Source: Ruminococcus bromii
GTDB lineage: Bacteria; Bacillota; Clostridia; Oscillospirales; Acutalibacteraceae
NCBI RefSeq assembly: GCF_002834235.1
Contig: NZ_NNBY01000034.1
Coordinates: 1-64,000 of the forward strand
DNA length: 64,000 nucleotides
Direction: 5' to 3'
Part shown: piece after piece, positions 35,986 through 62,000 of the stretch
How positions within the stretch are numbered: position 1 is the first letter of the stretch
Layout of the letters: the number at the start of each line of letters is the position of its first letter
The notes under the pieces: model-generated
Told to the model about the DNA's origin: nothing
Database searches by the model: none
The model's input: only the letters and a program-made list of their open reading frames with translations
Made by a program: the position numbers and the translations under genes

Positions 35986-36006
35986 AGAGAAAATTCCTGT
36001 TCTGGT

Positions 36007-37005
36007 TTAAATAAACCCGATTTTCTTCATAACCTTGCCCATTGTGCGGCTGCTGATTTTAAGGGCAATTTCATCGGCTTTTCTGTAACAGCTTTCAAGA
36101 TATGCCTTGTCTGCAACAAGCTTTTCGTAGCGTTCACGAATCGGACGAAGTTCTTCGACAACTGCCTCGCCTACCGCTGTCTTGAAGTCGCCGTAGCCCT
36201 TGCCGTCAAAATCCTTTTCAATCTGTTCATATGAAAGACCTGTAACTGCGCTGTAAATTGCCATAAGGTTATTTACGCCGTCTTTGCCCTCCGCATAGCG
36301 AACCTTTGCCTCGCTGTCCGTAACGGCTCTCTTGAACTTCTTCATTATCACCTCGGGTGTATCAAGAAGATGTACACAGCCGTTGACATTTTCATCGGAC
36401 TTGCTCATCTTTCTTGTCGGGTCCTGAAGACTCATAACCCTTGCACCGTTCTTTGGAATGAAACCGTCCGGAATCTTAAACACATTGCCGTAAATACCGT
36501 TAAAACGCTCTGCAATGTTCCTTGTAATTTCAATGTGCTGTTTCTGGTCTGCACCGACAGGCACTTTGTCAGCCTGATAGAGAAGAATGTCGGCAGCCAT
36601 GAGTACGGGATATGTGAAAAGACCTGCGTTGATGTTGTCGGCATGCTTTGCAGACTTGTCCTTGAACTGCGTCATTCTTGAAAGCTCGCCGAACTGTGTG
36701 TAACAGCTGAGCGCCCATGCAAGCTCTGCGTGAGTGTGAACATGACTCTGAATGAAGAAAAGACTTTTTTCAACATCAATACCGCAAGCCATAATTGAAG
36801 CATAAGCGTCAATTATATTCTTACGCATAACGGCAGGAGTCTGTCTTACTGTGATTGTGTGCAAATCTGCAAGAGCGTAAATGCAGTCGTATTCGTTCTG
36901 CATTGTAACCCAGTTGCGAACCGCACCGAGATAGTTTCCGAGTGTAATTGTTCCGCTGGGCTGTATTGCGCTGAATACAACCTCTTTTTTTGTCTGATTT
37001 TCCAT
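36007..37005 (-). CDS. trpS: Tryptophanyl-tRNA synthetase
   Basis: 332 residues, the usual bacterial length. The class I signature is the HIGH-like TITLGNYLGA near the N-terminus, and the KMSKS loop appears literally as RKMSKSDENVN (about residue 200). YPVLMAADILLYQADKVPVG and QHIEITRNIAERFN are TrpRS-specific. It charges tRNA-Trp. CGGAGGGGAATA precedes the ATG. It starts 15 bp after the aminotransferase gene, so there is no room for a T-box leader between them, and none is evident upstream of the operon. Confidence 0.96.
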   Translation of the reverse strand: MENQTKKEVVFSAIQPSGTITLGNYLGAVRNWVTMQNEYDCIYALADLHTITVRQTPAVMRKNIIDAYASIMACGIDVEKSLFFIQSHVHTHAELAWALSCYTQFGELSRMTQFKDKSAKHADNINAGLFTYPVLMAADILLYQADKVPVGADQKQHIEITRNIAERFNGIYGNVFKIPDGFIPKNGARVMSLQDPTRKMSKSDENVNGCVHLLDTPEVIMKKFKRAVTDSEAKVRYAEGKDGVNNLMAIYSAVTGLSYEQIEKDFDGKGYGDFKTAVGEAVVEELRPIRERYEKLVADKAYLESCYRKADEIALKISSRTMGKVMKKIGFI

Positions 37006-37020
37006 TATTCCCCTCCGTGA

Positions 37021-38205
37021 TTAAAGACTGTTTGCATACTCGCCGAGGATTTTTATTCCTCTTTCGAGCTGTTCGTCAGTCGGTGTTGAAAAGTTTATTC
37101 TGAAACTGTGACAGGTTTCGTTTTCGTCAGTTAAAAATGCGTTGCCCGGAACTACGCAAACCTTTTTGAGAACGAGTTCTTTGCAGAAATTCGGCATATC
37201 AATATCCTCGGGCAAGTCACACCAAATGAAAAGACCGCCGTCAATTTTATGATATGTGATTTTCGGTGCGCAGTATTTGTCAAGAAGCTCCATGCAGAAG
37301 TTCGCTTTCTTTGTGTAGATTTCACGAAGCTTTGCAAGATGAGCGTTAAAGTCATACTTTGTGATGAATTCATCGCATACATATTGTGCCCAGATGTTTG
37401 TATGTACATCGTTGCCCTGTTTGCACACAACAAGCTTTTGAAAAATCGGCTTTGGTGCAATTGTGTAAGCAACACGCATACCCGGTGAAATTACCTTTGA
37501 GAATGAACCGGCATAGATTACAATTCCGTCCGTATCAAAGCTTTTTATGTTCGGAACATATTCACCGCTGTAACGCAGGTCGCCGTACGGGTTGTCCTCA
37601 ATGATGAGAACACCGTATTTTTTGGCAAGCTCATAAACTTTCTTACGCTTTTCAAGGCTCATTGTAACACCCGAAGGATTTTGAAAATTCGGAATTGTGT
37701 AAATGAGCTTTGCGTTCGGATTGGCTTTTAAAGCCTCTTCAAGCTTTTCTGTGCTCATACCGTCAGGCTCAACGGGAACACCTGCAAGCTTTGCGTTGTA
37801 GCTTCTGAATGTGTTGAGCGAGCCGATGAATGACGGTGCCTCGCAGATTACAACATCGCCCTCGTTTACAAGAGCCTTTGAGCATAAATCCATAATCTGC
37901 TGTGCGCCTGTTGTGATGAGAATGTCGTCATTGTCAGAGCCTGTGTTATGCTCCTTTTTCATATATTCCGTAAGGTGCTTTCTCAGCGGAGTGTAACCCT
38001 CCGAAACGCTGTACTGTAAAACCGAAATCGGATCTTCTGCAAAAACCTTTGCCGAGATTTCCGCAATCTCCTTTGAGGGAAATGCATCGGGCGACGGGTT
38101 TCCTGCCGAAAGCGACACAACGCTCGGATCGGCGGCATATTTGAAAATTTCTCTGATAGCACTCGGTTTCAGGCTTGAAACCCTGTCGGAAAACCTGTAT
38201 TCCAT
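37021..38205 (-). CDS. PLP-dependent aminotransferase (class I, LysN/MocR-like catalytic domain)
   Basis: 394 residues. Fold type I motifs: SLSAGNPSPDAFPSKEI, ILITTGAQQIMDLCSKAL, IPNFQNPSGVTMSLEKR, IIEDNPYGDLRYSG (Asp and Tyr for PLP) and IVIYAGSFSKVISPGMRVAY with the Schiff-base Lys in SFSK. The C-terminal SFRINFSTPTDEQLERGI holds the carboxylate-binding Arg. It resembles 2-aminoadipate/aromatic aminotransferases of the MocR catalytic type, without the DNA-binding domain. AAAAGGAGAT precedes the ATG. First gene of the minus-strand operon; promoter at 38259-38287. Confidence 0.9.
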   Translation of the reverse strand: MEYRFSDRVSSLKPSAIREIFKYAADPSVVSLSAGNPSPDAFPSKEIAEISAKVFAEDPISVLQYSVSEGYTPLRKHLTEYMKKEHNTGSDNDDILITTGAQQIMDLCSKALVNEGDVVICEAPSFIGSLNTFRSYNAKLAGVPVEPDGMSTEKLEEALKANPNAKLIYTIPNFQNPSGVTMSLEKRKKVYELAKKYGVLIIEDNPYGDLRYSGEYVPNIKSFDTDGIVIYAGSFSKVISPGMRVAYTIAPKPIFQKLVVCKQGNDVHTNIWAQYVCDEFITKYDFNAHLAKLREIYTKKANFCMELLDKYCAPKITYHKIDGGLFIWCDLPEDIDMPNFCKELVLKKVCVVPGNAFLTDENETCHSFRINFSTPTDEQLERGIKILGEYANSL

Positions 38206-38258
38206 AAAAATATCTCCTTTTAAGATGATAAGGATTTTTTAAAATTCCATACCCTGTA

Positions 38259-38287
38259 ATTCTATCACGAATTGCATATATGTTCAA
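38259..38287 (-). promoter_or_regulatory. Promoter of the aminotransferase-trpS-glycosyltransferase operon
   Basis: Minus strand TTGAAC (38287-38282), 17-bp spacer, TAGAAT (38264-38259). Confidence 0.72.
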
Positions 38288-38393
38288 GAAATTTGACTGT
38301 TTTTACTGCGATTTTATTCAAAAAATGTGTAATTTATTATTTTGCATTTGTAAATGTTAATTCACGGAAATTGTATTTTTTGTGCTTTTTGTA

Positions 38394-38422
38394 TTGTTTT
38401 TGATGAGTTTCTGTTGTATAAT
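38394..38422 (+). promoter_or_regulatory. Promoter of the DHHW protein gene
   Basis: TTGTTT (38394-38399), 17-bp spacer, TATAAT (38417-38422). The leader to 38560 is about 130 nt; I see no defined structure in it beyond an AATTCAAATTGAATT palindrome near 38515. Confidence 0.68.
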
Positions 38423-38560
38423 CTAAGTGATAATGTCCTTACGGTCAGAGCAAGGCTTGCTTTGATTCAAACAGGAGTACACTGCGAGTAATTAATACAC
38501 TTATATAATTCATTGAATTCAAATTGAATTTAAAAATCTTCAGTTTGGGAGAATAACACT

Positions 38561-39859
38561 ATGAGCAGAAGAAACGATTACGATTATTTTGATCTTGATA
38601 ATTTCGATGACAGCATTGATTCCCGTGAATATCGTCGCAGACAGCAACAGCGCCGTCCTGCAAGCTATGCCGCAAGACCGTCATCACAGCGTCCCGTCAG
38701 AAGAACTGTAAAAAGAAGAAACAAAAGAAGAACCAGAAACAGAATTATTATCGTTGCGAGCGCATTGATAATTCTGTTTGTTATTATTTTTATTATAACT
38801 TCAATTTTTAAGGGTTGTTCAAAGGAAGATGCCCTTGCAAGCGTTCCCACGGGAACAGTGGGTACAACGGCATCTCCCGACGAAACCGCAAAATCTTCGA
38901 CCGCTGACAAAGCAAACGAGCTTTCTCCTACATATTTTATGACACCGAGCATAAAGGACGACAATACAAAAGGAACTCTTTCGTACAGCATTTATGTGTG
39001 GAACAAAACAGGCTACGAATTGTTCAGCAGTGATGATGCAAGAGCGCAGAACTATGCTCAGACAATCAACGGCTTTGCAGACAAGTTCGGCAGTTCCGTA
39101 AAGGTTTATGATATGATTGTTCCTAACCATACCGAAATGGGACTTCCGCAAAGGCTCAAAGACAGCGACGCTCCGTCAACCTCACAGGCTGACAACATCA
39201 AGGCGGCTTATGCGGCTCTTTCCGATAAGGTAACTCCGATTAACTGCTACAACCGTCTTGCAGAACATAATACAGATTACGTCTACTTTAAGAGCGACCA
39301 CCATTGGACAGGCCTCGGCGCTTACTATGCTTACACAGCATTTGCCGATACAAACGATTTGCCCGTTCTTTCGCTTGATGATTGCGAGGAACAGAAGATT
39401 AACGGCTTTACAGGCTCGTTTACCAACTCGGCAGACGGTCTTGACAGCGATACGGTAAGTTATTGGAAGTTCCCTTATAATGTAACAATGGATATCACAC
39501 AGGCAGACGGTTCTTCCGCAAGCTATGACAGTCCCTACTATGAAGCCGCAGAGGGCGGTTCAAACACCTACGGTGTGTTTATTATGGGTGATAATGCCCT
39601 CACGGTTCTGAAATCAGCTTCGGAAAATGCGGCGGCAGGCAAGAAGATTGCCGTTGTAAAGGAAAGCTACGGCAACGCTTTTGTTCCGTATCTCACAAAT
39701 AACTACGAAGAAGTTCATGTTATCGACTTCAGATATTTCAAACAGAATCTTGTTGATTACTGCAAAACCAACGGAATTGACGAGGTGCTTTTTATGAACG
39801 GTGTAATGAGTGCCAACACTCAGGTTCAGCTTGACAGTATGAGCGGACTTTTTAACTGA
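38561..39859 (+). CDS. DHHW-family membrane-anchored protein (SGNH/AlgX-like)
   Basis: 432 residues. A basic, Arg-rich cytoplasmic N-terminus (SQRPVRRTVKRRNKRRTRNR) precedes one transmembrane helix (IIIVASALIILFVIIFIITS, about residues 63-82). The outer domain has the DHHW motif in FKSDHHWTGLGAYYAYTAF and a later VVKESYGNAFVPYL, together the Ser-x-x-Asp-His logic of SGNH/GDSL-like AlgX/AlgJ proteins that acetylate exopolysaccharide. Activity is inferred. TTGGGAGAATAACACT precedes the ATG. NUDIX gene follows after 33 bp. A membrane acyltransferase_3 (11315), the usual acyl donor for such proteins, is in this window but not adjacent. Confidence 0.83.
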   Translation: MSRRNDYDYFDLDNFDDSIDSREYRRRQQQRRPASYAARPSSQRPVRRTVKRRNKRRTRNRIIIVASALIILFVIIFIITSIFKGCSKEDALASVPTGTVGTTASPDETAKSSTADKANELSPTYFMTPSIKDDNTKGTLSYSIYVWNKTGYELFSSDDARAQNYAQTINGFADKFGSSVKVYDMIVPNHTEMGLPQRLKDSDAPSTSQADNIKAAYAALSDKVTPINCYNRLAEHNTDYVYFKSDHHWTGLGAYYAYTAFADTNDLPVLSLDDCEEQKINGFTGSFTNSADGLDSDTVSYWKFPYNVTMDITQADGSSASYDSPYYEAAEGGSNTYGVFIMGDNALTVLKSASENAAAGKKIAVVKESYGNAFVPYLTNNYEEVHVIDFRYFKQNLVDYCKTNGIDEVLFMNGVMSANTQVQLDSMSGLFN

Positions 39860-39892
39860 TATCATATCGGGTAAATTCTTGTAAGGAGGTGT

Positions 39893-40594
39893 ATGCCGAT
39901 GATAGCAGACAGCGTGAAGGTGAGCGTGTTCGGAAAAATAAGCGATAAGCTGTATTCGGCACAAATTACCTCCGTTTCAGGACGCTGTAAAAGTGCGTAT
40001 GTGATTTCGCACAAACCCGTAACAGAATATTTTGAGGGCGTTGTGGTTGCCGTTGCCGAATTTGACGGCCTTGACGGCGAGCGTCCGATAATCTCACAAT
40101 ACGGTGAGGTGTTTTATGAGCCCGAACTGCGACAGGTGCTTTCAAAACTGAAAAATATTAAGCTGAAAAGCATTGTGTGCCTTTACGAAAAGTCGTGCGG
40201 TGCGGTTATCTTCTATAAAAGCAGACAGAACACGAAAATTCTGCTTGTAAAGAACAGCAACGGCAGATATTGGAGTTTTCCGAAGGGACATATTGAAGAC
40301 GGTGAAAACGAACATCAGACAGCAATCCGTGAAATTAAAGAGGAAACAGGTCTTGATGTCGTGATTGAAAAGGGCTTTCGTGAAATCAGCGAATACTGTC
40401 CTTTCGGTAAAATTCGCAAACGGGTTGTCTTTTTCCTTGCACAGGCATTTACGGATAATGTCAAAATTCAGGAGGAGGAAATTGACAGTTATATTTGGGT
40501 TGATTTGCAACAGGCACGAAAAATGTGCTCCTATGATAATGATTTGAGGATTATTGAGAAAGCTGAAACGGCGATTCATCTTCTCAGAAACTAA
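39893..40594 (+). CDS. NUDIX hydrolase with extra N-terminal domain
   Basis: 233 residues. The C-terminal half holds a complete Nudix box, GHIEDGENEHQTAIREIKEE followed by TGL (G-x5-E-x7-REUXEEXGU), about residues 125-147. The substrate-loop start is GAVIFYKSR and WSFPKG, as in diadenosine-polyphosphate hydrolases (MutT/Ap4A type). The first 95 residues form an unrelated beta-rich region (VKVSVFGKISDKLYSAQITS) that I do not recognise. AAGGAGGTGT precedes the ATG; a second ATG six bases on is possible. Likely co-transcribed with the DHHW gene. Confidence 0.88.
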   Translation: MPMIADSVKVSVFGKISDKLYSAQITSVSGRCKSAYVISHKPVTEYFEGVVVAVAEFDGLDGERPIISQYGEVFYEPELRQVLSKLKNIKLKSIVCLYEKSCGAVIFYKSRQNTKILLVKNSNGRYWSFPKGHIEDGENEHQTAIREIKEETGLDVVIEKGFREISEYCPFGKIRKRVVFFLAQAFTDNVKIQEEEIDSYIWVDLQQARKMCSYDNDLRIIEKAETAIHLLRN

Positions 40595-40620
40595 AAGCCG
40601 ACAATTTAACGCGAAATTTA

Positions 40621-40650
40621 CAGGTACACGGCGGTGTGCCTGTTTTTTTG
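40621..40650 (+). terminator. Terminator after the NUDIX gene
   Basis: CAGGTACAC (40621-40629) with GTGTGCCTG (40634-40642), 4-nt loop, one G-T pair, followed by seven T. Beyond it the gap 40651-41038 holds no gene. Confidence 0.88.
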
Positions 40651-40707
40651 ATTTTATAAAACATTTTCTGTAAATTAAAAATGTTGAAAAAAAGCAAAAA
40701 ATACCAC

Positions 40708-40737
40708 TTGACATGTGGATTATACAGAATGTAATCT
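40708..40737 (+). promoter_or_regulatory. Possible promoter in a gene-free, DnaA-box-like region
   Basis: TTGACA (40708-40713), 18-bp spacer, TAATCT (40732-40737). The region 40700-40910 also has two inverted GTTTTCCACA sites (40769-40778 on the minus strand, 40866-40875 on the plus) and a repeated TTATACAGAATGTA (40720 and 40896). The next start codon is 300 bp away, so the assignment is uncertain. Confidence 0.4.
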
Positions 40738-41038
40738 AATTTCCCCGTTACAATCCTGTATCCAAAAATGTGGAAAACCTATTTTTTTAATGTTAAAAGT
40801 TACAACTTTGTAAATTTCGTGTAGTATCGGGATTTTTTAACATCACTTTCAACACTTTCAACATAGTTTTCCACATTGATGTTTAAAATGTTGAGTTATA
40901 CAGAATGTATAAGTGCAAATTTAGAAAAATAAATCGCAAATTCGTGATTCAAAAAAACATTTTTTTCTGCGATTCAAATTGTGACAAGGTAATATATGAC
41001 AATCTATACTCATAAAATACATCGGCGAGGTGTGTTTT

Positions 41039-41620
41039 ATGAAAAAGGAAACCGTGAAAATGAGGCTTTGGGGGCTTGTCATTGTTCCGATGATGATAAT
41101 TGTGTTCAAAAATCTTTATTCGCTGACAAACGGTGCGTTGCTTGGCATATTTTTCGGTGCTGTAAACGGCAGTATGTGGGAGCAGATCAAGGTTGTTATG
41201 CTTTCCTACCTTGTGTGGAGTCTTGTTGAGGCAATCGGAAAACGCTCGGGATTCCATCGCTTTGCCGTGTCAAGAATAATTTCGCTGTGGTTTGTCGGAA
41301 TATTCTGTCTTGCGTCATATCTGCTAATCTATGCACTCGGTGTTGAAAGTGCAGGTCTGCCAAGGTTTATTTGTGCAATTGCCGTGTGTTTTTCTGCGTT
41401 TGCACTCAGCGCAAGGCTTGAATACGGCGAAAGAAAAATTGAACAGCTTTTTTTGCCCTGCGTGTTTATGATGTTGCTTTTGATTGCCGTGTATTGCAGT
41501 TTTACAGTGTTCCCTCCGCACATGATACTTTTTGAGGACATTCAAACGGGAATGTACGGCATAATTCCCGAATACATCGACTCCGGAGCGATTGCTCTTG
41601 ATACATTGTACAGAGTTTGA
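41039..41620 (+). CDS. DUF6512-like small membrane protein
   Basis: About 193 residues with five or six hydrophobic helices. Key features are LYSLTNGALLGIFFGAVNGSMWEQIKVV, with a conserved Asn-Gly-Ser-Met-Trp-Glu in the first loop, and a C-terminal PPHMILFEDIQTGMYGIIPE. The match to the DUF6512 membrane family is from memory and function is unknown. ATG at 41039 has CGAGGTG about 8 nt upstream; GTG at 41030 lies inside this site. Transcribed alone; the rlmB gene follows at 127 bp. Confidence 0.7.
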   Translation: MKKETVKMRLWGLVIVPMMIIVFKNLYSLTNGALLGIFFGAVNGSMWEQIKVVMLSYLVWSLVEAIGKRSGFHRFAVSRIISLWFVGIFCLASYLLIYALGVESAGLPRFICAIAVCFSAFALSARLEYGERKIEQLFLPCVFMMLLLIAVYCSFTVFPPHMILFEDIQTGMYGIIPEYIDSGAIALDTLYRV

Positions 41621-41747
41621 GTTTTTAAAAACAAATGGCTTAAAAGTATTTAATAATTTGAATTGTTATGTTATAATAGATAGCAAAATGAAGTGGTGTG
41701 TCCCATGCAGACACAAAAAATAAAAAGGAAACCGAATAAGGCTGATT

Positions 41748-42509
41748 ATGATGAAAAACGAAAGATTTGAAAATACAGAACAAAAGCCTGATGTGATTGC
41801 AGGGCGAAATCCTGTAAGTGAGGCTGTTCGCAGTAATCGCCCGATTGACAAAATTCTTGTTGCAAAGGGTGAAAAGAGCGGTGCGATTGTGGGAATCCTC
41901 GCAAAAGCCCGAGATAAGAAAATTCCCGTTAAGGAGGTTGACCGCACAAAGCTTGATTATGTGAGCGGCGGCGCAACTCATCAGGGTATTGTCGCATTTG
42001 CAGCGGCAAAGGATTATTCAACGGTTGACGATATCCTCGAATATGCCGAAAGCAGGGGCGAAGCTCCGTTTGTTGTTGTGCTTGACGAGGTTGAAGATCC
42101 GCATAATCTCGGTGCAATAATCAGAACCGCAGAATGTGCCGGAGTTCACGGAATTATTATTCCGAAACGCAGAAGTGCCGGTTTAAGCTACACGGTTGCC
42201 AAAGCGTCTGCAGGCGCAATTGAATATATGCGTGTTGCAAGGGTGACTAATATTGCGGTTACACTTGATGAGCTCAAAGAAAAAGGCGTGTGGGTTTACG
42301 GCGCAGACATGGACGGCACGGATTATGACGAGTGTGATTTTTCGGGTGCGTGTGCAATTGTTATCGGCAACGAAGGTAAGGGCATTTCCAGACTTGTCCG
42401 TGAAAAGTGCGATGTAATAGCGTCATTGCCCATGAAAGGTCAGATAAATTCCCTTAATGCGTCGGTTGCCGCAGGAATTTTGATGTACAAAGCGATGAAA
42501 AACCGCTGA
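41748..42509 (+). CDS. rlmB: 23S rRNA 2'-O-ribose methyltransferase (TrmH/RlmB family)
   Basis: 253 residues. The N-terminal substrate-binding part starts VIAGRNPVSEAVRSNRPIDK, and the SpoU (alpha/beta knot) domain carries VVLDEVEDPHNLGAIIRTAE (motif 1, Asn-x-G-x-x-x-R), AIVIGNEGKGISRLVREKCD (motif 2) and IPMKGQ-type LPMKGQINSLNASVAAGILM (motif 3). It methylates a guanosine ribose in 23S rRNA using SAM. Two ATGs lie at 41748 and 41751; TAAGG is just upstream. The downstream gap (42510-42732) is filled with a dispersed repeat. Confidence 0.93.
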   Translation: MMKNERFENTEQKPDVIAGRNPVSEAVRSNRPIDKILVAKGEKSGAIVGILAKARDKKIPVKEVDRTKLDYVSGGATHQGIVAFAAAKDYSTVDDILEYAESRGEAPFVVVLDEVEDPHNLGAIIRTAECAGVHGIIIPKRRSAGLSYTVAKASAGAIEYMRVARVTNIAVTLDELKEKGVWVYGADMDGTDYDECDFSGACAIVIGNEGKGISRLVREKCDVIASLPMKGQINSLNASVAAGILMYKAMKNR

Positions 42510-42550
42510 TGTCAAATTGAAAATGTAAAATGGAAAATTTATGATAGTAT

Positions 42551-42630
42551 GTAGGGGCGTTCATTGGACGCCCGCATTGATGAAATATTATGTTTAAATA
42601 AAATCATTTGATGTTATCAAAGTTGTGTGT
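42551..42630 (+). repeat. Dispersed repeat family E, copy 1
   Basis: GTAGGGGCGTTCATTGGACG palindrome followed by GCATTGATGAAATATTATG and TTTAAATAAAATCATTTGAT. Copies: 53597-53645 (plus), 61741-61817 and 61911-61982 (minus). The remaining gap has CTCGGGCGG...CTGCCCGAG arms (42667-42710) before the next gene. Confidence 0.72.
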
Positions 42631-42732
42631 TTAAATGTCAAAGATTGCAAAAACAGAGAGTACCGCTCGGGCGGCATAGTTTCCGATAAATCTAACTATC
42701 TGCCCGAGAGTAAATAAAAAGGAGTGAATGCT

Positions 42733-45393
42733 TTGGCTGATATGGACAAGGACAGGCTTAAAGAGCTTGAAATCGAGAGCATACTCGAAGAAACCCACTA
42801 TCTTGCCGATCAGGAGCGAATGGAGCAGACGGCACAGAAATACCGTGCAAAGCCGAAGATTGAAGAGATTTTCAGCAATGCCGATAAAAAGCCGAGGTTA
42901 AAAAATACAAATCCGCTTGATGAATCCGAACCTGATACTTCAAACTCAATAGTCGGGGATAAGACTGCCGCCACAATGCAGGCAGAGCTTATAATGGACG
43001 GAAATGACGATGACCTTGTAACTCCCGAACAGCTTAAAGCAGAGGCTGAAAAAAAGGCTGCGGAAAAAGCCGAAAAAGCCAAGCGTGAGTATGAGGAGGC
43101 AAAGAAAAAAGCCGCCGAGGAAGAAAATAAAATAGTTACCCTCACACCTGAGTATGATGAAAATACAGAATTTTCGGGCGAAGTGCTCGGAGAGGTTGAC
43201 CAGTTTCGTGACGAGGCTGAAATTAAAAGCTACCATACCATAGATATCGACATTCCCGAGGATAAGCCAAAGGAAAAGACCGAAACCAAAGAAAAGAAAG
43301 AGGCTTCGCAGACTCCCGTTCATCAGTTCCCGAATACCGAAAAACCGCCTCGCAAGGTGGTTGCAAAAGTTCCCGTGTATCGTCCCGATGAACCGAGAAA
43401 TATTCTCAATGTCAAGGCAGGCAGATTTTCCGAGGTTGTATCGAATGAGTATGAGGAGTATGTGCGTTCAAAGAATCCTTCGGTAATCGCTCATGTGCTT
43501 CGTCCCGAGCCGACAATCGTTGATGAGGAGATTGCCCCGACCGAGGAAAAGCATAAGGATAACCGCCCTATAGGCGAAAAGGTTATTTCTGCCCTTGTCG
43601 GAATCTTTTCAAAGGATGAATCCGACGATAACGATACCGTAAAAGAGGAAAATTCAAAGCCTGTTGAGGATTATACAGGCGAGGAGGACGAAAAAAGTAT
43701 TCTCTATGAGCTGAATCATAATATAAGAAAGCTCTTTATGAGAAGTCTGTTGTCGGGAATAATTGCCGCAGTTGTGGTTGTTCTCACAATCGTTACAAGA
43801 ATTTTTCCGAGTGCAATATGTTCGGCAGTTCCTTTTGCACCGGCGGCATACGCAATTTTGCTGTTTGTTCTTATGGCGGCATCGCTTGTGCTGAACCGTG
43901 TGGCAATGCTCAGCGGACTTTCACCGCTTGTGCATATCAAAGGTAATTCCGATACAGCCGTTGCCGTTGCAGGTGCGGCAGGAATGGTTCAGATAATTGT
44001 GTCATTCTTCTGCCTTGGCGATTTGAACGGATTTCATGTGAACTACTACACGGTAATTCCTATGCTTGCGTTCTTTGCAAATAATGTGGGAAAGCTTTAT
44101 ATGGTTCTTCGTGTAAAGGACAATTTCAAGTTTGTTTCGTCAAAAGGACAGAAATATGCGTCAAAAATTTACAACAACGAGTCTGTTGCAATGCAGATGA
44201 TGAGCGGTACTGCCGCCGACCGTCCGATAATTGCCTATCAGCATAAGACCGAATTTCCGTCAAACTTTCTCAAAATATCTTATGCACCCGATCCGAGCGA
44301 GGATTTGGCGTCAAAGCTTGCCCCGATAACAACAATTGCATCAATAACCATTGCGGTAATGTACGGTGTTGTTAAGCTGTCATTTGCAGACGCTTTGAAT
44401 GCATTTGCACTTATCACTGCGGTGTCTGTGCCTGTGGCAACACTTCTTTCTGTTAATGCCCCCGTGAGAAAGCTCTGCAAAACTCTGCTCTCCTACGGCT
44501 CAATGCTTTCGGGTTATCCGTCGGTAAAGCAGTTCTGCGACAGTACGGCTATAATGATAGATGCAAATGAATTGTTCCCTGCCGAGTCAATCTCGCTTGA
44601 GGGCATCAAAACCTTTGAGGATTACGGCATTGACGAATCTCTTCTCTGCGGAATTGCAATTCTTAAAGAGGCTCAGAATCCGATTGCAAATGCTTTTGAT
44701 TCGGTAGTTGCAGAAACCGAGGAAACACTTCCCGAGGTTGAAAGCGTTCTTTATGAGGATGAAATCGGACTTGTGGGATGGATTAAGAGCGAAAGAATCC
44801 TTGTGGGTTCACGCACGCTTATGGAAAAGTACAGCGTGGAAGTTCCGAATATGGAATATGAGGAGAAATATACTTCTCAGGGCAGACAGGTCACATATCT
44901 GTCAAGAGCAGGCAGACTTGTTGCAATGTTTGTTACAAGATACACTCCCGATGCTCAGCTCAAGGCTGAAATGCAGAGAGCCGAAACCAACGGCATAAGC
45001 TTTCTCATCAGAACAACCGATTATAATGTTACAAATGACCTTGTTGCAAAACTCTACGATTTGTTTTACCGCAGTATCAAGGTGCTTCCGACAGGACTCG
45101 GAAATGTTCTCAGGGAGGCTGAGGATACGGTTGAGGAAACCTCCCGTTCATATCTCATTACAAACGGCAAAGCCGCATCGCTTGCCCGTGCAGTTACGGG
45201 TTGCGTAAAAATCAAGCACAATATTTCGCTTTCAATCATAATTCAGCTGATTGCCGTAATTTTCGGATTGCTCGTTGCGTCAACACTTTCGCTTTATGCC
45301 GGTGTACAGGTTATGGGTTCGCTTGAAGTGCTGATTTATGCGTTGTTCTGGGGCGCCGCCGCTGTTTTTGCTCCGGCTGTCCAAAAACCGTAG
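42733..45393 (+). CDS. Degenerate P-type ATPase-like membrane protein without DKTGT
   Basis: About 886 residues. Residues 1-330 are a charged, low-complexity cytoplasmic region (AEAEKKAAEKAEKAKREYEE). Then come about six transmembrane helices (two pairs near 338-390 and 410-460, a third near 530-575), a 260-residue soluble loop and two final helices (835-885). Layout and local patterns (AVSVPVATLL in the CPC helix position; QVTYLSRAGRLVAMF; LIRTTDYNVTNDLVAKLY; AASLARAVTGCVKIKHNISL) match a P1-type ATPase. The phosphorylation motif DKTGT is replaced: AIMIDANELFP near residue 610. The actuator TGES is also missing. It should not hydrolyse ATP as a pump. Start: TTG at 42733, 8 nt after GGAG; the GTG at 42724 overlaps the ribosome site. 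rpe follows after 15 bp. Confidence 0.75.
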   Translation: MADMDKDRLKELEIESILEETHYLADQERMEQTAQKYRAKPKIEEIFSNADKKPRLKNTNPLDESEPDTSNSIVGDKTAATMQAELIMDGNDDDLVTPEQLKAEAEKKAAEKAEKAKREYEEAKKKAAEEENKIVTLTPEYDENTEFSGEVLGEVDQFRDEAEIKSYHTIDIDIPEDKPKEKTETKEKKEASQTPVHQFPNTEKPPRKVVAKVPVYRPDEPRNILNVKAGRFSEVVSNEYEEYVRSKNPSVIAHVLRPEPTIVDEEIAPTEEKHKDNRPIGEKVISALVGIFSKDESDDNDTVKEENSKPVEDYTGEEDEKSILYELNHNIRKLFMRSLLSGIIAAVVVVLTIVTRIFPSAICSAVPFAPAAYAILLFVLMAASLVLNRVAMLSGLSPLVHIKGNSDTAVAVAGAAGMVQIIVSFFCLGDLNGFHVNYYTVIPMLAFFANNVGKLYMVLRVKDNFKFVSSKGQKYASKIYNNESVAMQMMSGTAADRPIIAYQHKTEFPSNFLKISYAPDPSEDLASKLAPITTIASITIAVMYGVVKLSFADALNAFALITAVSVPVATLLSVNAPVRKLCKTLLSYGSMLSGYPSVKQFCDSTAIMIDANELFPAESISLEGIKTFEDYGIDESLLCGIAILKEAQNPIANAFDSVVAETEETLPEVESVLYEDEIGLVGWIKSERILVGSRTLMEKYSVEVPNMEYEEKYTSQGRQVTYLSRAGRLVAMFVTRYTPDAQLKAEMQRAETNGISFLIRTTDYNVTNDLVAKLYDLFYRSIKVLPTGLGNVLREAEDTVEETSRSYLITNGKAASLARAVTGCVKIKHNISLSIIIQLIAVIFGLLVASTLSLYAGVQVMGSLEVLIYALFWGAAAVFAPAVQKP

Positions 45394-45408
45394 GAAAGGA
45401 TGTAAAAT

Positions 45409-46056
45409 ATGAAAATAGCTCCGTCACTTTTGTCTTGTGACTTTTCAAAAATGGGTGAAGAAATTGAAAGAATGGATCTGGCGGGTGCCGATTGGATGCA
45501 TCTTGATGTTATGGACGGTCACTTTGTTCCGAACATAACCTTTGGCGCTCCCGTAATCAAGGCGGTAAGGAAGTTCTCAAACCGCCCGTTTGATGTTCAC
45601 CTTATGATAAGCGATCCGCTTAAATATATTGACGATTTTGCCGATGCAGGTGCGGATATCATTACCTTCCATGTTGAATGTGACTCTGACATTGATGATA
45701 CAATTGCGAAAATCAAGTCAAGAGGAATCAAACCCGGACTTGTTCTAAAGCCAAACACTCCTGCCTGGACAGTATTTCCGTATCTTGAAAAGCTTGACCT
45801 TGTACTTGTTATGACGGTTGAACCGGGCTTTGGCGGACAGAGCTTTATGCCCGAGATGATGCCGAAGGTTAAGGAAATCAAGAGGGAATGCCAACGCAGA
45901 GGTCTGAACAATATCCTTATTGAGGCTGACGGCGGAATCGGCAGAGATACCATTGAACAGGCGTCAGAGGCAGGCGTTGATGTGTGTGTTGCGGGAACAG
46001 CCGTTTTCAGAGCCGCAGATCCCGCAAAAGCAATTGAGCTTTTTAAATCATTCTGA
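45409..46056 (+). CDS. rpe: Ribulose-phosphate 3-epimerase
   Basis: 215 residues, full length. MKIAPSLLSCDFSKMGEEIE, HLDVMDGHFVPNITFGAPVI (catalytic Asp and metal His), DVHLMISDPLKYIDDFADAG, MTVEPGFGGQSFMPEMMPKV and ADGGIGRDTI (second Asp) are the textbook family motifs. The TIM barrel interconverts ribulose-5-phosphate and xylulose-5-phosphate in the pentose phosphate pathway. GAAAGGATG precedes the ATG. It is probably co-transcribed with the P-type ATPase-like gene upstream, a pairing with no evident functional reason, and is followed by a strong terminator. Confidence 0.96.
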   Translation: MKIAPSLLSCDFSKMGEEIERMDLAGADWMHLDVMDGHFVPNITFGAPVIKAVRKFSNRPFDVHLMISDPLKYIDDFADAGADIITFHVECDSDIDDTIAKIKSRGIKPGLVLKPNTPAWTVFPYLEKLDLVLVMTVEPGFGGQSFMPEMMPKVKEIKRECQRRGLNNILIEADGGIGRDTIEQASEAGVDVCVAGTAVFRAADPAKAIELFKSF

Positions 46057-46074
46057 TAAATTCTGATAATAAGC

Positions 46075-46117
46075 AAGCCCGAATCCGATATTTCTCGAAT
46101 TCGGGCTTTTGTTTTTT
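46075..46117 (+). terminator. rpe terminator
   Basis: AAGCCCGAAT (46075-46084) with ATTCGGGCTT (46099-46108), followed by TTTTGTTTTTT. Confidence 0.9.
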
Positions 46118-46304
46118 ATATGAAATGAACAGGCGTAAAACACTGAAAATTCTTATATTGTAATTGTCAATATATGTAAAAACGGTCGATAAAAAGGCAA
46201 TATACACAATAACAAGCACGAAAATTTGTACAATGCAACAATTTCACCGTTATTTTGCACAGATTTTTAGCTAAAACATTTCCGTTAAAAGAATAACAGA
46301 TTCA

Positions 46305-46403
46305 TTGCCCGAACAACTTAAATGTGTTATAATTTAAATGTCCTCGGAAATTTTGTACTGTTAAAGTTTCCGAAGCTTAGAAGTATTGCCACAAAACTGT
46401 GGC
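46305..46403 (+). promoter_or_regulatory. Promoter and structured leader of the cohesin-like gene
   Basis: TTGCCC (46305-46310), 17-bp spacer, TATAAT (46328-46333). The leader of about 100 nt has two hairpins: TCGGAAA (46344-46350) with TTTCCGA (46367-46373), and GCCACA (46388-46393) with TGTGGC (46398-46403). They may stabilise the mRNA of an abundant secreted protein; no known riboswitch is recognised. The stretch 46118-46304 is AT-rich with nothing else visible. Confidence 0.65.
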
Positions 46404-46439
46404 GAACGGTAATTTTATTTTATTAAAGGAGCAGCAAGT

Positions 46440-48053
46440 ATGAAAAAAATTCAGAAAAAGCTTTCTGTGGTTCTTGCGGTAATGATGGTGCTGTGCATGT
46501 TCACAGCTCTGCCTTTCTCAGCAAGTGCTGCCGAAACAAGCGAAGAAACAAGTGCAGGCAACAAGATCAATGTTACATCAAATGTGGCAGATCCTGTTTC
46601 GTATGATTACAATGCACAGACAAAGCAGGTTGTTGTCACTTACCTTCTCAAGGCAGATCACATGATCGTTAATGCACAGAGCAGTCTTACATACGACAGC
46701 AAGGTTCTCAAGCTTGCATCAACAAATACAAGGGAAAAGGTTTTCCCTGTATTCCAGAGAAGCATCGTTTGGAATCCAAGCCTTACAAATAAGGTTCGCT
46801 TCACCTGCTCAAGCCTTGATCTTTTCAACTTCAAGTCAGAGAATGTTTATTGCACATTTACATTTGATGTTGTAGGCAGCGGTGACACAACAGTAAATCT
46901 CGATGTTGATTATCTTACAGGTACAGAGGCTGATACATATAAGGAGCTCTTCGAAAGCGAAAAGAAGGACATCGGTTATATTGACAATAGTGCTAACAAA
47001 GTAGCAGGTGCTGCATTTACTGCAAAGGCAGTTCTCGTTCAGGACGAAGAGCCAACAACAGCTCCTCAGCCTACAACAGCAACACAGCCCACAACAGCAA
47101 CACAGCCCACAACAGCAACACAGCCGACAACAGCAACACAGCCGGCAACACAGCCGACAACAGTTGCTCCTTCGGATGTTCCTACAGACGGCTACTATGT
47201 ATACGGCGACAACATCAAGCTCAAGCTTACATCAATCGGTACAGATAAAGTAGGCGGAAAAATCGCTCTTCAGAAGGGTACATACACATTCAAGATTGAT
47301 AACTATGGCACACTTCTCGGTTACTCTAAGACATTTACAGACACAACAAAGGGTCTTACATTCAACAAGAATTACAAAAGCAGCACAACACTCGTTGCAA
47401 CAGGCGGTACATACACATTCCAGTTTAACACAAAGACAAACACACTCGTTGTTAAGTATGACAAGAATCTCCCGAATGATTACCTCATCGGTGACCTCAA
47501 CACAATTCTTTCGCCTGTAAAAGGCAGAACTATCGCAGTTGGTTCAACATATCTTGCAGCAGGCACATACAAGTTCAAGCTTTCTGCAGATAATGTGGTT
47601 TACGGTTACAGCAAAGTAATCAACAACACAACAAACGGAAATTCACTTTCACTCAACAGCAAGTATTCAAGCTACCTAACACTCAACGCAACAGGCGGTA
47701 CATACACATTCACACTCAACACAAAAACAAAGAAACTCGTTGTAGGTTATGTTCCTACAAAGGATGAGAAAGCTGATGATGTTCATGTATCGGGCGACAT
47801 CAACCTCGTACTTGATGACAAGGGCGGCGAGAGCAATGTTGCAAAGGGTACAGTAAAGCTTAGTGAGGGTACATACTCATTCAAGGTTTATAACTACGGT
47901 ACAGCATACACAATCGGTTCAAAGATTGTTGACAGCGGTACAAAGAACCTCAAGAGCTCTTACACATCTAATGTAACACTTATCGCATCAGGCGGTACAT
48001 ATACATTCAGCTTCGACAAGACAACAGGAGCACTTAAAGTAACTAAAAAATAA
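46440..48053 (+). CDS. Secreted protein: cohesin-like domain plus three beta-sandwich repeats
   Basis: 537 residues. A signal peptide (KLSVVLAVMMVLCMFTALPF, cleavage near ASA-AET) is followed by a cohesin-like beta-sandwich at about 40-200 (VVVTYLLKADHMIVNAQSSL, VYCTFTFDVVGSGDTTVNL). A PTTATQ linker is repeated about five times. Three related repeats of about 85-90 residues follow, each ending in a TGGTYTFxFNTKTxxLVV-type strand pair (SGGTYTFSFDKTTGALKV in the last), resembling early-set/X25-like starch-binding modules. No dockerin, LPXTG or membrane anchor is visible. Surface glycan binding or scaffolding is inferred; codon use is highly biased to preferred codons, suggesting strong expression. 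AAAGGAGCAGCAAGT precedes the ATG. Confidence 0.72.
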   Translation: MKKIQKKLSVVLAVMMVLCMFTALPFSASAAETSEETSAGNKINVTSNVADPVSYDYNAQTKQVVVTYLLKADHMIVNAQSSLTYDSKVLKLASTNTREKVFPVFQRSIVWNPSLTNKVRFTCSSLDLFNFKSENVYCTFTFDVVGSGDTTVNLDVDYLTGTEADTYKELFESEKKDIGYIDNSANKVAGAAFTAKAVLVQDEEPTTAPQPTTATQPTTATQPTTATQPTTATQPATQPTTVAPSDVPTDGYYVYGDNIKLKLTSIGTDKVGGKIALQKGTYTFKIDNYGTLLGYSKTFTDTTKGLTFNKNYKSSTTLVATGGTYTFQFNTKTNTLVVKYDKNLPNDYLIGDLNTILSPVKGRTIAVGSTYLAAGTYKFKLSADNVVYGYSKVINNTTNGNSLSLNSKYSSYLTLNATGGTYTFTLNTKTKKLVVGYVPTKDEKADDVHVSGDINLVLDDKGGESNVAKGTVKLSEGTYSFKVYNYGTAYTIGSKIVDSGTKNLKSSYTSNVTLIASGGTYTFSFDKTTGALKVTKK

Positions 48054-48135
48054 TCATTGATTTTTGATTATAATTTGGCGGTGTTCGTCACTTGTTCGTA
48101 AGCGAATAATAAGACATAACTGAAATTATTAAAAA

Positions 48136-48172
48136 ATGCATCAGATCCCGAAAAAGGTCTGATGCATTTTTG
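48136..48172 (+). terminator. Terminator after the cohesin-like gene
   Basis: ATGCATCAGA (48136-48145) with TCTGATGCAT (48158-48167), then TTTTTG. The same GCATCAGA...TCTGATGC core occurs at 15371 and 57741. Confidence 0.87.
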
Positions 48173-48211
48173 TTTTGTATAAAACCCGTACGGCGACTTG
48201 CCGTCAGCAAA

Positions 48212-49279
48212 TTATATACAATATAAATTCGTATCCCATGCCGGAATATATGGGTGGTGGCGGAGAAAAATTTTGTAGTCGGGATTCACGCTGTGAATGT
48301 ATAGTGCAAGGCGGAAAATATCCTCAAATCTGTGGTATGCCGAAAAATTCAGCTTTGGTTTGCAGTTTTCCATTGTTTTCTGCATACCGATAAGGGTTTC
48401 CATATCCGCCCCCTCAACATCGGCTTTAATGTAGCCTGCCGCCATTCCGCAGAGAATCGTATCGACTGTCGCAACCTTTGTTGCAACGCCCTTGTCGGCA
48501 ATTGCGCTGTTGCGACCGGCCTTGTTGTTGAATATAAGCTCCGTGTTTTTACTGTATGAGCCGAGTTGCCAAAGCGACACATTCGCCATGCCCTTGCAAT
48601 GAAGTTTCAGCTTTTCAAAATTCTTTGCGTTAGGTTCAAATGCGATTATACGCTTGTAATTGCCGTTTGTGTAGTGCAGAAATTCGTCAATCGTGTCGCC
48701 GTTGTATGCGCCGAGGTCAACATAGCTTTCGTTTTTACTGAGATTCAGAATATTGCCAAAAGCCTCGTCCTTGTCGGTTGTGACAGGGGGGAGGAGGTCA
48801 ATTCTGCCTGTGTAGTAGAATTTCAGAATGTTTTCGTAAACCTTTTTTGAAAGGTCATCGGCAAGCAGACTGTATGCACTTTCAATTTGTTCTTTATTTT
48901 CGGTAATAAAATCATTGTCAAAAAGTTTGTTTCCAAAAACAGGAACGGAGGGGACAAGCGTTTCGTGCTTTTCAGAAATTTTCGTTATGTGTTCCATAAC
49001 ATCGGGGAGCTGGCTTGCAAAGCAGAGGGCGATTATAATGTCGCCAAATTCCGTTTCAACATCGGAAAGCTTCTTCACCGTGAAATCGTGGAATTTCTGC
49101 CCACGCACAAAATCATCACTTGCAATAACGGCAGACGCTTTGATTCCGTATCGGTCAAATGCGGCAAGAACCTTGTCCGCACCGTCACCCATTCCGTAAA
49201 GCACAACAGGCTTTCCGCAATTTTTCAGTCGTTCCCATACAGATATTTCATTTTTTAAAAGTTCGGTTATATTAAACAT
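48212..49279 (-). CDS. FkbM-family methyltransferase
   Basis: About 355 residues. The C-terminal SAM-dependent domain has YVDLGAYNGDTIDEFLHY (motif I), IIAFEPNAKNFEKLKLH (motif II, acidic), and the FkbM signature DTILCGMAAGYIKADVEGAD followed by METLIGM. The N-terminal 150 residues contain a Rossmann-like KPVVLYGMGDGADKVLAAFD, a pattern seen in glycan-modifying FkbM proteins that also bind a nucleotide sugar. It probably O-methylates a sugar. ATG at 49279 has GGAG about 8 nt upstream; an in-frame start at 49348 is less likely. Transcribed alone on the minus strand. Confidence 0.85.
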   Translation of the reverse strand: MFNITELLKNEISVWERLKNCGKPVVLYGMGDGADKVLAAFDRYGIKASAVIASDDFVRGQKFHDFTVKKLSDVETEFGDIIIALCFASQLPDVMEHITKISEKHETLVPSVPVFGNKLFDNDFITENKEQIESAYSLLADDLSKKVYENILKFYYTGRIDLLPPVTTDKDEAFGNILNLSKNESYVDLGAYNGDTIDEFLHYTNGNYKRIIAFEPNAKNFEKLKLHCKGMANVSLWQLGSYSKNTELIFNNKAGRNSAIADKGVATKVATVDTILCGMAAGYIKADVEGADMETLIGMQKTMENCKPKLNFSAYHRFEDIFRLALYIHSVNPDYKIFLRHHPYIPAWDTNLYCI

Positions 49280-49362
49280 ATAGATACTCCAATTAGTGTA
49301 TATGGCATTGTAATTGTTTTCGCAATGAACGCCCCTACGGGTTTGCAAAGCAAAAAAAGTAT

Positions 49363-49388
49363 AAAAAAACGCCCACCCTACTGGGTGG
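49363..49388 (-). terminator. Terminator of the 5S rRNA gene
   Basis: Minus strand: CCACCC (49388-49383) with GGGTGG (49378-49373), AGTA-type loop, then GCG and seven T. Confidence 0.88.
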
Positions 49389-49399
49389 ACACTTTATAT

Positions 49400-49515
49400 G
49401 TTGGCATCTCCCTATTTTTCCGGGCCGTCACCAGCCAAGTATTTTCGGCACCACTGAGCTTAACTTCTGTGTTCGGTATGGGAACAGGTGGACCCTCAGC
49501 GTCATCAACACCAAC
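49400..49515 (-). rRNA. 5S ribosomal RNA, isolated gene
   Basis: About 116 nt on the minus strand. The ends GTTGG and CCAAC pair; the conserved internal stretches CCATACCGAACACAGAAG and TGGTGCCGAAAATACTTGGC are present. No 16S or 23S sequence lies on either side. The gene has its own consensus promoter and terminator, so it is transcribed alone. Confidence 0.96.
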
Positions 49516-49551
49516 TTATTAACTTTTGTTTCTCTCTTGAGAACAGTATTG

Positions 49552-49580
49552 ATTATACTACGGGCTGCACCAAATGTCAA
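49552..49580 (-). promoter_or_regulatory. Promoter of the isolated 5S rRNA gene
   Basis: Minus strand TTGACA (49580-49575), 17-bp spacer, TATAAT (49557-49552), preceded by an A/T-tract UP-like element (49581-49610). Confidence 0.9.
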
Positions 49581-49758
49581 CACTTTTTTTAAAAAAATTT
49601 AAAAATTCTTTTAAAACCCAGAAAAGCCCGTATTTATCCCGATTTATCGCCGTTTTAACCGTCATTGAACCCAATGTATACTTGATGCGGTGAAAAATTA
49701 TACATATTTTGGCTTGTTAAAGCGTAAAAAATAGGATGCCGTTGTTTGTCGTAAATTA

Positions 49759-49787
49759 TTGACTAAACGGATAAAAATGTGTACAAT
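49759..49787 (+). promoter_or_regulatory. Promoter of the DUF815 ATPase gene
   Basis: TTGACT (49759-49764), 17-bp spacer, TACAAT (49782-49787). Confidence 0.8.
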
Positions 49788-49810
49788 AAAATAGATTAGA
49801 ACAGATTGGG

Positions 49811-51055
49811 ATGTTTAGAATGAATAATGTAAATAAGTGTAAAATGCTTTTGTCATCACTCTCTGTATTCAGAGGTATAATGAACAGAAGCGTTCCGAAA
49901 GCCTTTTATGAACTTTTGCTTTCGCTCGACAAAAAGCCTGAGGAATTTCTCGGTGCATACGGCAAGCTTTGCTCAATGCTTTGCGAAAGAGGCTGTGCGG
50001 ATAAGTTCGCATTTGCAATCAGCGAAACGGCTCTTTTTGACGATAACTGTTTTGCCCGTGCCGCAACAGCCGGCAAACAGGGCGAGTTACCCGAAAATGT
50101 TGTTTCTGCCGTTAAGACAGACTGCGACGCTATTTTAACAGCCGCAAAGCTTACTTCCGATGAAGTGCTTGAGGCATATACCTATGCCGATGAAATCAAG
50201 GAGCTTATTCCGATTCTTCCAAAGTGGCAGACAGGCAAGTGCGCTCCGTGCTTTGACGGATTTGACGGTTCACTTGACAAGCTTTCTGCTTATTATAAGG
50301 AAAACGGTTGCGGAATGTTTGCCCGTTACAAGGCATTCATCTGGCGTGACGGTGACATTCAGCCTGTTGAGCATCCTGACAAAATTGATATGGATACATT
50401 TACGGGATATGAGCGTCAGAGAAGTCAGGTTGTAAACAACACACTTTCATTTATTCAGGGCAAGAGCTGTAACAACTGTCTGCTTTACGGTGATAAGGGT
50501 ACAGGTAAAAGCTCAACAGTCAAGGCAATTGCAAACGAGTTCCGCAAAGACGGACTCCGCATTGTTGAAATGCCTAAGGACAGGCTCATTGACTTTCCGC
50601 TTCTTGTTGACAAGATTGCCGCTCTTCCGCTTAAATTCATTATATTTATTGATGATCTTTCGTTCCAGCATCAGGATCAGAGCTATACAACCCTTAAAGC
50701 CGTGCTTGAGGGCGGACTTGCGGCTCGTCCCGATAATGCGTTGATTTATGCAACATCAAATCGCAGACACCTTGTTAAGGAAAGCATTTCCGACAGAACT
50801 CATACTGTTGATGATATCAATGTTCGTGACAATATGCAGGAAAGTCTTTCGCTTTCGGACCGTTTCGGTCTGGCAGTCTGCTACACAATTCCTTCAAAGA
50901 ATGATTTTCTTGAAATTGTATATTCTCTTGCAGAGCAGAGAGGCGTCAAGATGACTCACGAAGAGCTTGCACTCGGCGCTGAGCAGTTTGCACTTTCAAG
51001 AGGCGGTCGTTCGCCAAGATGTGCAAGACAGTATGTTGAATCGCTGTTTTGCTGA
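49811..51055 (+). CDS. DUF815-family AAA-type ATPase
   Basis: 414 residues. The N-terminal half is helical and unrecognised. The C-terminal DUF815 domain begins TFTGYERQRSQVVNNTLSFI, with Walker A LLYGDKGTGKSSTVKAI (about 224-240), Walker B FIIFIDDLSFQ, sensor-1-like LIYATSNRRHLVKES and a sensor-2 region SRGGRSPRCARQYVE. The arrangement is that of an AAA+ P-loop ATPase; its physiological partner is unknown. ATG at 49811 is used; ATG at 49820 is equally possible because the ribosome site is weak (TTGGG). The substrate-binding protein gene follows at 17 bp with its own GGAGG, so the two may be co-transcribed. Confidence 0.85.
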   Translation: MFRMNNVNKCKMLLSSLSVFRGIMNRSVPKAFYELLLSLDKKPEEFLGAYGKLCSMLCERGCADKFAFAISETALFDDNCFARAATAGKQGELPENVVSAVKTDCDAILTAAKLTSDEVLEAYTYADEIKELIPILPKWQTGKCAPCFDGFDGSLDKLSAYYKENGCGMFARYKAFIWRDGDIQPVEHPDKIDMDTFTGYERQRSQVVNNTLSFIQGKSCNNCLLYGDKGTGKSSTVKAIANEFRKDGLRIVEMPKDRLIDFPLLVDKIAALPLKFIIFIDDLSFQHQDQSYTTLKAVLEGGLAARPDNALIYATSNRRHLVKESISDRTHTVDDINVRDNMQESLSLSDRFGLAVCYTIPSKNDFLEIVYSLAEQRGVKMTHEELALGAEQFALSRGGRSPRCARQYVESLFC

Positions 51056-61481: not shown

Positions 61482-62000
61482 GAATTGAAAATGTAAAATT
61501 AAGGTCGGGAAGACAGTTTGCAAAATGCAAGCATTTGTCTTCCCGACTGTTTTTTATATATAGAAGGTGTTGTTAATTTGTAGGGGCGGATATTATCCGC
61601 CCGCAAGTAAAGACACAAATATTGTGATAGAAATAAACTATATAAATATCACAAAGTTACTGCTATTTTGTAGGAGAAAACCGTGTTCTCCCGTTCGTGT
61701 GCATTGCACACGATTGCACGCATTGCGTGCAAAATTGAATACACAGTTTATGTTATATCAAAACATATTATATAAACATAAATATTCATCAAGCGGGCGG
61801 ATGATATCCGCCCCTACGGGTTTGTGACATTTATAAAATTTGTTTTAACATATAATTTGTACCATTACTTGCAGGCGTACACGGTTCGTCCCTACAAATG
61901 AATACATAACATTGATAATATCAAATGATTTTTTGCAAACATAAATTCACATCAATGCCGGCGAATATTATCCGCACAAACGGGTTGTGGGATTATACAA
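61482..62000. repeat. Array of dispersed repeats (families A and E) in a gene-free gap
   Basis: Within 61472-62196 no gene is seen. 61482-61560 is a family A copy with GTCGGGAAGACA and TGTCTTCCCGAC arms and T-run (terminator of nfnB). 61580-61608 is a GGGGCGGATATTATCCGCCC palindrome. 61741-61817 and 61911-61982 are two family E copies on the minus strand, and 61871-61895 a CAGGCGTACACGGTTCGTCC fragment. Confidence 0.8.

Follow-up and report, generated by a model that had tools for sequence, protein, structure and literature searches.

What task remains for a P-type ATPase once the residues that drive pumping have disappeared? The question is raised by a gene in the window, the 64,000-nucleotide stretch of DNA analyzed here. 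The source is a Ruminococcus bromii-like species: the protein is 90% identical to the copy of R. bromii ATCC 27255 (L093) and 97% identical to an incomplete copy found in an uncultured Ruminococcus (L061). The gene (42733-45393, + strand) encodes a P1B-ATPase-like membrane protein without catalytic motifs. Its frame opens with TTG at 42733 and continues without interruption to a stop codon whose last base is 45393, so that the intact 886 residues reported in a preliminary description are confirmed. GTG 42724 and ATG 42742 are other possible starts; TTG 42733 is the best choice, and AGGAG (42720-42724) lies 8 nt 5′ of it.

Fold and catalytic motifs

Pfam returned no match to the protein up to an E-value of 10. 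NCBIfam gave local matches to CopA (1.7e-9) and to heavy-metal ATPases (2.9e-9), both far under the curated cut-offs, and LpCopA was matched at 3e-6 by sequence and at 1e-26 by the family profile. An AlphaFold2 model computed from 45 sequences (the window protein and 44 relatives) reached a mean pLDDT of 74.9 and a pTM of 0.62; residues 316-886 are mostly near pLDDT 90 and residues 1-315 mostly low. Compared with LpCopA, the model gave a Foldseek E-value of 1.8e-17 (4bbj) and a VIA-align Z of 23.6 over 475 residues (3rfu), and the matches listed in fold searches were all P-type ATPases. The whole-chain rmsd to LpCopA is large (about 9 Å), as differing domain arrangements can produce in such a model, and the N domain alone aligns with that of AfCopA with a Z of 15.1 and 2.2 Å over 115 residues. 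Given the NCBIfam matches, the LpCopA matches by sequence and by profile, and the predicted-fold matches, the P-type resemblance is not due to chance. The P1-type fold that had been proposed is thus borne out by comparison of the predicted structure with CopA, the model being related to P-type ATPases.

In the model, the core (about residues 316-886) is a P1B-ATPase fold with eight predicted membrane helices. Its N domain is intact, its P domain has shrunk and a proper A domain is lacking. The P-type layout, in which M4 of the membrane core leads into inserted P and N domains, is present in the predicted structure, and from the model and the LpCopA alignment we infer the membrane topology. All parts lie on the + strand. 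Helices equivalent to MA, MB, M1 and M2 occupy residues 316-466 (43678-44130); both MA and MB are predicted, and the LpCopA alignment runs from residue 324-327 onward. In the model and profile alignment, a short M2-M3 loop without TGES (residues 467-520, 44131-44292) stands where the A domain would be, followed by helices equivalent to M3-M4 (residues 521-587, 44293-44493) with V566-P567-V568 at the CPC site. The family alignment places DANELFP (residues 610-616, 44560-44580) at the former phosphorylation site, replacing DKTGTLT. By structure and family alignment, the N domain (residues 618-732, 44584-44928) retains G679 and G692 and has lost the HP histidine and the equivalent of E457. The model and alignment end with a reduced P domain (residues 733-812, 44929-45168), in which Y737 and D763-x-N765 are strongly conserved and the GDGxND region is deleted, and with helices equivalent to M5-M6 (residues 813-884, 45169-45384), which carry W873.

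The extent of the deletions was read from a profile alignment to LpCopA built from 20 family sequences, whose outer pieces score weakly and which has no large gaps from M3 to the P domain. Profile positions 382-469 face CopA 178-338 and positions 744-768 face CopA 615-671. Because these longer CopA spans have so short a counterpart, about 73 A-domain and about 32 P-domain residues are missing, the latter including GDGxND, and no A domain is recognizable. Both deletions go beyond the losses listed in the preliminary description.

Motifs were counted in 153 family sequences, some species being present twice, from two collections. DKTG occupies the phosphorylation site in none of them; the window protein reads DANE, and DANEL was correctly placed near residue 610 (residues 610-614) as the substitute for DKTGT. 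The lysine and the glycine of DKTG are each absent from all 153 (147 have E or D at the glycine), D610 is Asp in 113 and replaced in 40, and the DKTG strings of three members (L178, L147, L149) fall off-site in the tail. TGES, whose absence had also been seen correctly, stands at its place in none of the 153; strings in five of them belong to the tail or the N domain. The lone GDGxND string sits in a tail. CPx occurs in M4 of none of the 153, the lone CPC/SPC/CPH/TPC string being outside M4; the loss of CPC that had been described therefore stands, and the letters given for its replacement (SVP) do not, being off by one residue from the actual V566-P567-V568. The glycine of TGD is found in 0 of 152 sequences and its aspartate, D763, in 152 of 153. 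In the HP motif of the N domain the histidine is never found and the proline is kept in 122 of 153, the equivalents of E457 and H462 are missing throughout (0/153 each); of GxG, the first glycine remains in 35 of 153. The losses are shared across the family, none of the 153 having DKTG, TGES, CPx or GDGxND at its site. The gene also falls outside the five PF00122 matches of its own genome. That the protein is catalytically dead is strongly supported by these substitutions and deletions, and ATPase activity is presumably absent.

The conserved residues are found chiefly in what was once the nucleotide and P-domain region. Carried over from ordinary pumps are G679 and G692 (153/153 each), the M4 proline P567 (142/153) and D763; new and strongly conserved are Y737 (149/153), N765 (145/153), W873 (147/153) and P616 (143/153). 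G679 and G692 are equivalent to CopA G492 and G501, which we take to be nucleotide-site glycines. Six residues (G679, G692, Y737, D763, N765, W873) are invariant in 20 order-wide sequences. The new motif erodes in the 20 most divergent loci (19 genomes), where among the 18 with a residue D763 is kept in 15, N765 in 5 and Y737 in 16, and the two glycines stand wherever their site is present.

In comparison with CopA (LpCopA 3rfu and 4bbj; AfCopA N and P domains 2b8e and 2voy), the family thus shares the helix order, the N-domain fold, the position of the M4 proline and a colinear stretch from M3 to the P domain. In contrast to CopA, it lacks DKTGT, TGES, GDGxND, CPC and the HP histidine as well as the A- and P-domain segments described above, has no recognized metal-binding domain, and combines a long acidic tail with a link to rlmB.

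Constraint, distribution and origin

Purifying selection on the gene is strong. NG86 dN/dS is 0.068 against L093, 0.059 against L051, 0.047 against L061, 0.086 against L058 and 0.091 against L053, with dS above 2 in the last two pairs. Because of these values and of the distribution across the order, the gene is not decaying. Two broken-looking copies were seen elsewhere, one with an in-frame TGA (L193, in G045) and one in two frames (L035, in G034).

The family is near-universal in its bacterial order, which is itself common in gut and rumen. At 1e-10 an order-wide profile matches 297 of 297 order genomes, true ATPases included; by eye, 289 of the 297 have a best E-value no higher than 1e-40. 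Among these 289, the 19 weakest genomes were searched again, and their 20 opened loci contained no DKTG string. With a diverged, motif-less member in G300 (L229), family members are placed in 290 of the 297 sampled genomes, most of them counted from score alone. For the other seven (G113, G048, G078, G101, G136, G234, G320) the best match is a true ATPase with DKTG; likewise, the same-genus genome G021 has true-ATPase matches only, the best one with DKTG. Among the nearest genomes, 37 of 39 match at 0.001, some weakly. In a sample of the class (n = 392), 26 of the 27 genomes listed for the order score at least 280 bits, and none of the 365 genomes outside the order has a full-length match at 1e-30, a threshold that weaker members would escape. 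Ten of the 365 do match at 1e-30, at 106-120 bits, only over profile 466-751, the region common to true ATPases.

A tree of the N/P region, unrooted and drawn without the fifth ATPase of the window's genome (L226), sets 14 true ATPases apart from 35 family members, at a support of 0.938. The midpoint root falls inside the family, which suggests, rather than proves, a single origin.

Gene neighborhood and the acidic tail

The main new clue to the role is a conserved link to rlmB that is absent from the preliminary description. In the window, rlmB (41748-42509, + strand; TIGR00186 over cut-off) encodes the 23S rRNA guanosine-2251 2′-O-methyltransferase (Gm2251). It lies directly upstream of the family gene on the same strand at 60 of 61 loci in 20 families, a count that includes tblastn of ten uncalled loci and of L193 and L207 and in which about half of the loci belong to the window's own family. 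The exception is L043, with obgE (over cut-off) upstream, and at L037 the downstream gene is era (over cut-off); both are single neighbors and may be due to chance. The gaps after rlmB are mostly below 70 nt, some genes overlapping. The window has a gap of 214 nt, and co-transcription is not obvious here, given this length and a repeat element in the spacer. The repeat is a short palindrome (TAGGGGCG, 9 bases, CGCCCG) found three times in the window (42552-42574, in the spacer, and 61581-61603 and 61794-61816) and 23 times in the genome, as against 0 for a reversed-pattern control.

After rlmB, the next commonest neighbor families reach 15 of 60 loci; picking of the longest frames placed other, mostly antisense frames over rlmB, and these remaining counts may be low for the same reason. 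Among them is an EF-G paralog, found in 15 of 60 stretches. In 13 it follows the family gene on the same strand, and in 11 of these it is the very next frame. The paralog of L040 is over the cut-off of an NCBIfam EF-G subfamily and under that of EF-G proper (TIGR00484). Downstream in the window lies rpe, for ribulose-phosphate 3-epimerase (45409-46056, + strand), which also lies close to 12 of 60 other loci, every one of them from the window's own family (eight of the same genus, four of other genera). The neighbors point to ribosome or translation work, adjacency not being proof of it.

The long charged addition noted in the preliminary description is present as a 315-residue N-terminal region (42733-43677, + strand), for the most part modeled with low confidence, with 24% D/E, 16% K/R and a net charge of -27. 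A helix containing IESILEET is predicted at residues 4-38. The tails of all 13 members measured are acidic, with net charges from -5 to -142, and in two members of about 1470 residues (L185, L195) they extend to about 900 residues. Within the first 130 residues, the strict pattern [ST][VLI][DE][DE]ILxE is found in 14 of 60 members and a loose pattern in 35. A search of 11 genomes for this putative docking motif gave eight matches, versus none for a control, and four of the eight are the family's own genes. From reading of the sequences, the other four fall at the C terminus of a membrane protein (L215), in a frame resembling a glycosyltransferase (L216), in a DprA-like frame (L218) and in a probably spurious frame (L219). 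A docking motif common to other proteins was rejected, as no non-family protein in the 11 genomes bears it at the N terminus. The membrane protein L215, from the same genome, ends in ESEIDDILNEYRH, which resembles the N-terminal motif of the family.

Possible roles of a presumably non-pumping ATPase

Retention in almost all genomes of the order, nearly always beside rlmB, makes it probable that the dead pump does some other, non-pumping job; that this is the scaffold or sensor suggested in the preliminary description is conjectural. Our preferred reading, to which we give a probability of about 0.5, is that a P1B-type ATPase has been repurposed as a membrane platform that does not pump and that docks by an acidic tail, likely serving a ribosome or translation process. 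The residues for forming the phospho-aspartate, for removing it and for running the pump cycle are all gone; what is left would be an eight-helix membrane anchor, an N-domain head on a P-domain stub and a long, mostly disordered acidic tail. Head and tail may dock with a partner in the cytoplasm, and what was once the active site, now redesigned (D/E613, Y737, D763), may act as a binding or structural site. Ribosome maturation or translation is the most likely process served, in view of the near-universal pairing with rlmB and of the EF-G paralog present in some families. A bolder form, in which the protein would work with RlmB (and, in some families, the EF-G paralog) as a membrane-attached device of ribosome maturation or translation, a pump turned ribosome factor, is tentative and rather unlikely. 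Against the platform, gene adjacency can arise from co-transcription alone, the new motif erodes in divergent loci, the strict tail motif is confined to a minority of members, and the location of the conserved residues fits a ligand sensor equally well as a scaffold.

Such a sensor, whose head and redesigned site would bind nucleotide, phosphate or a cation without hydrolysis and signal its state through the tail, is the foremost alternative, although an outside chance. The invariant glycines and the conserved D/E613-Y737-D763 cluster are consistent with it, as is human TMEM94, which bound AMPPCP with micromolar affinity while ATPase activity was not detected (PMC12134183). However, the glycines may be structural, and the E457 and H462 equivalents, together with most first glycines of GxG, have been lost. 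TMEM94, also P-type-like, without TGES and of unsettled function, is the closest precedent in kind, likened here by description; unlike the family, it is eukaryotic, has ten helices and an A-like domain, and is nearest to SPCA rather than P1B (PMC12134183). Its inactivity is contested, the accessible part of another report presenting it as an ER Mg2+ ATPase, ERMA (PMC13322241). It retains a broken M4 with lipid beside this helix (PMC12134183). A role with lipids has been suggested for TMEM94, and by analogy the membrane domain of the family could conduct an ion or handle lipid passively by means of the M4 proline. This is unlikely: the proline is well conserved, but in the core conservation stays at or below 78% for every Cys, His and Met column, the membrane helices are no better conserved than the head, and W873 occupies M6. 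P-type folds joined to another function are also known from apicomplexan P4-ATPase-guanylate cyclase fusions; these differ in their fused cyclase domains, and DKTG loss is not described in the accessible part of the source (PMC6592433). According to the part available of a further paper, the activity of the ATPase domain of such a fusion is essential (PMC7858053).

The remaining alternatives are less probable still. A role as regulator of a genuine P1B pump of the cell that carries it would draw on the common fold and on the presence of possible partners, since the window's genome has five PF00122 ATPases (four opened, all four with DKTG) and at 3 of 61 loci (L036, L188, L190) the stretch retrieved also contains frames of true DKTG P-type ATPases. 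Yet the 22 commonest neighbor clusters inspected include no ATPase, and two carriers of the 25 genomes tested (G110 and G283, 94% and 91% complete) lack any heavy-metal P1B ATPase that passes the curated cut-off, which weakens an obligate P1B partner and leaves this role improbable. A pump still active through unusual chemistry could point to the frequent D610 and to the aspartate of TGD, but it would have to operate with D610 replaced in 40 sequences and with the lysine and glycine of DKTG, GDGxND, TGES and the A domain all gone; it was rejected because of these losses and is very improbable. A decaying pseudogene or sequencing artifact, for which only the two broken-looking copies could be adduced, was rejected on dN/dS and distribution, frames being mostly intact and synteny order-wide, and its probability is negligible.

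If the platform reading is correct, the fold of an ion pump can be retained for work in which nothing is pumped, and the tie to rlmB opens a connection of a membrane protein with ribosome work to direct test. To our knowledge, dead P-type ATPases have not been described as near-universal genes in bacteria. In the open-licence literature searched, no description of a bacterial family of this kind kept near-universally was found, and the accessible part of a review of P-type ATPases mentions none (PMC10654040).

Two further genes were observed in the window near the P1B-like gene or beyond it. An Rfam search of 36000-50000 located a 5S rRNA gene at 49399-49515 on the - strand, and a gene for a DUF815 AAA ATPase lies near the P1B-like gene, at 49811-51055.
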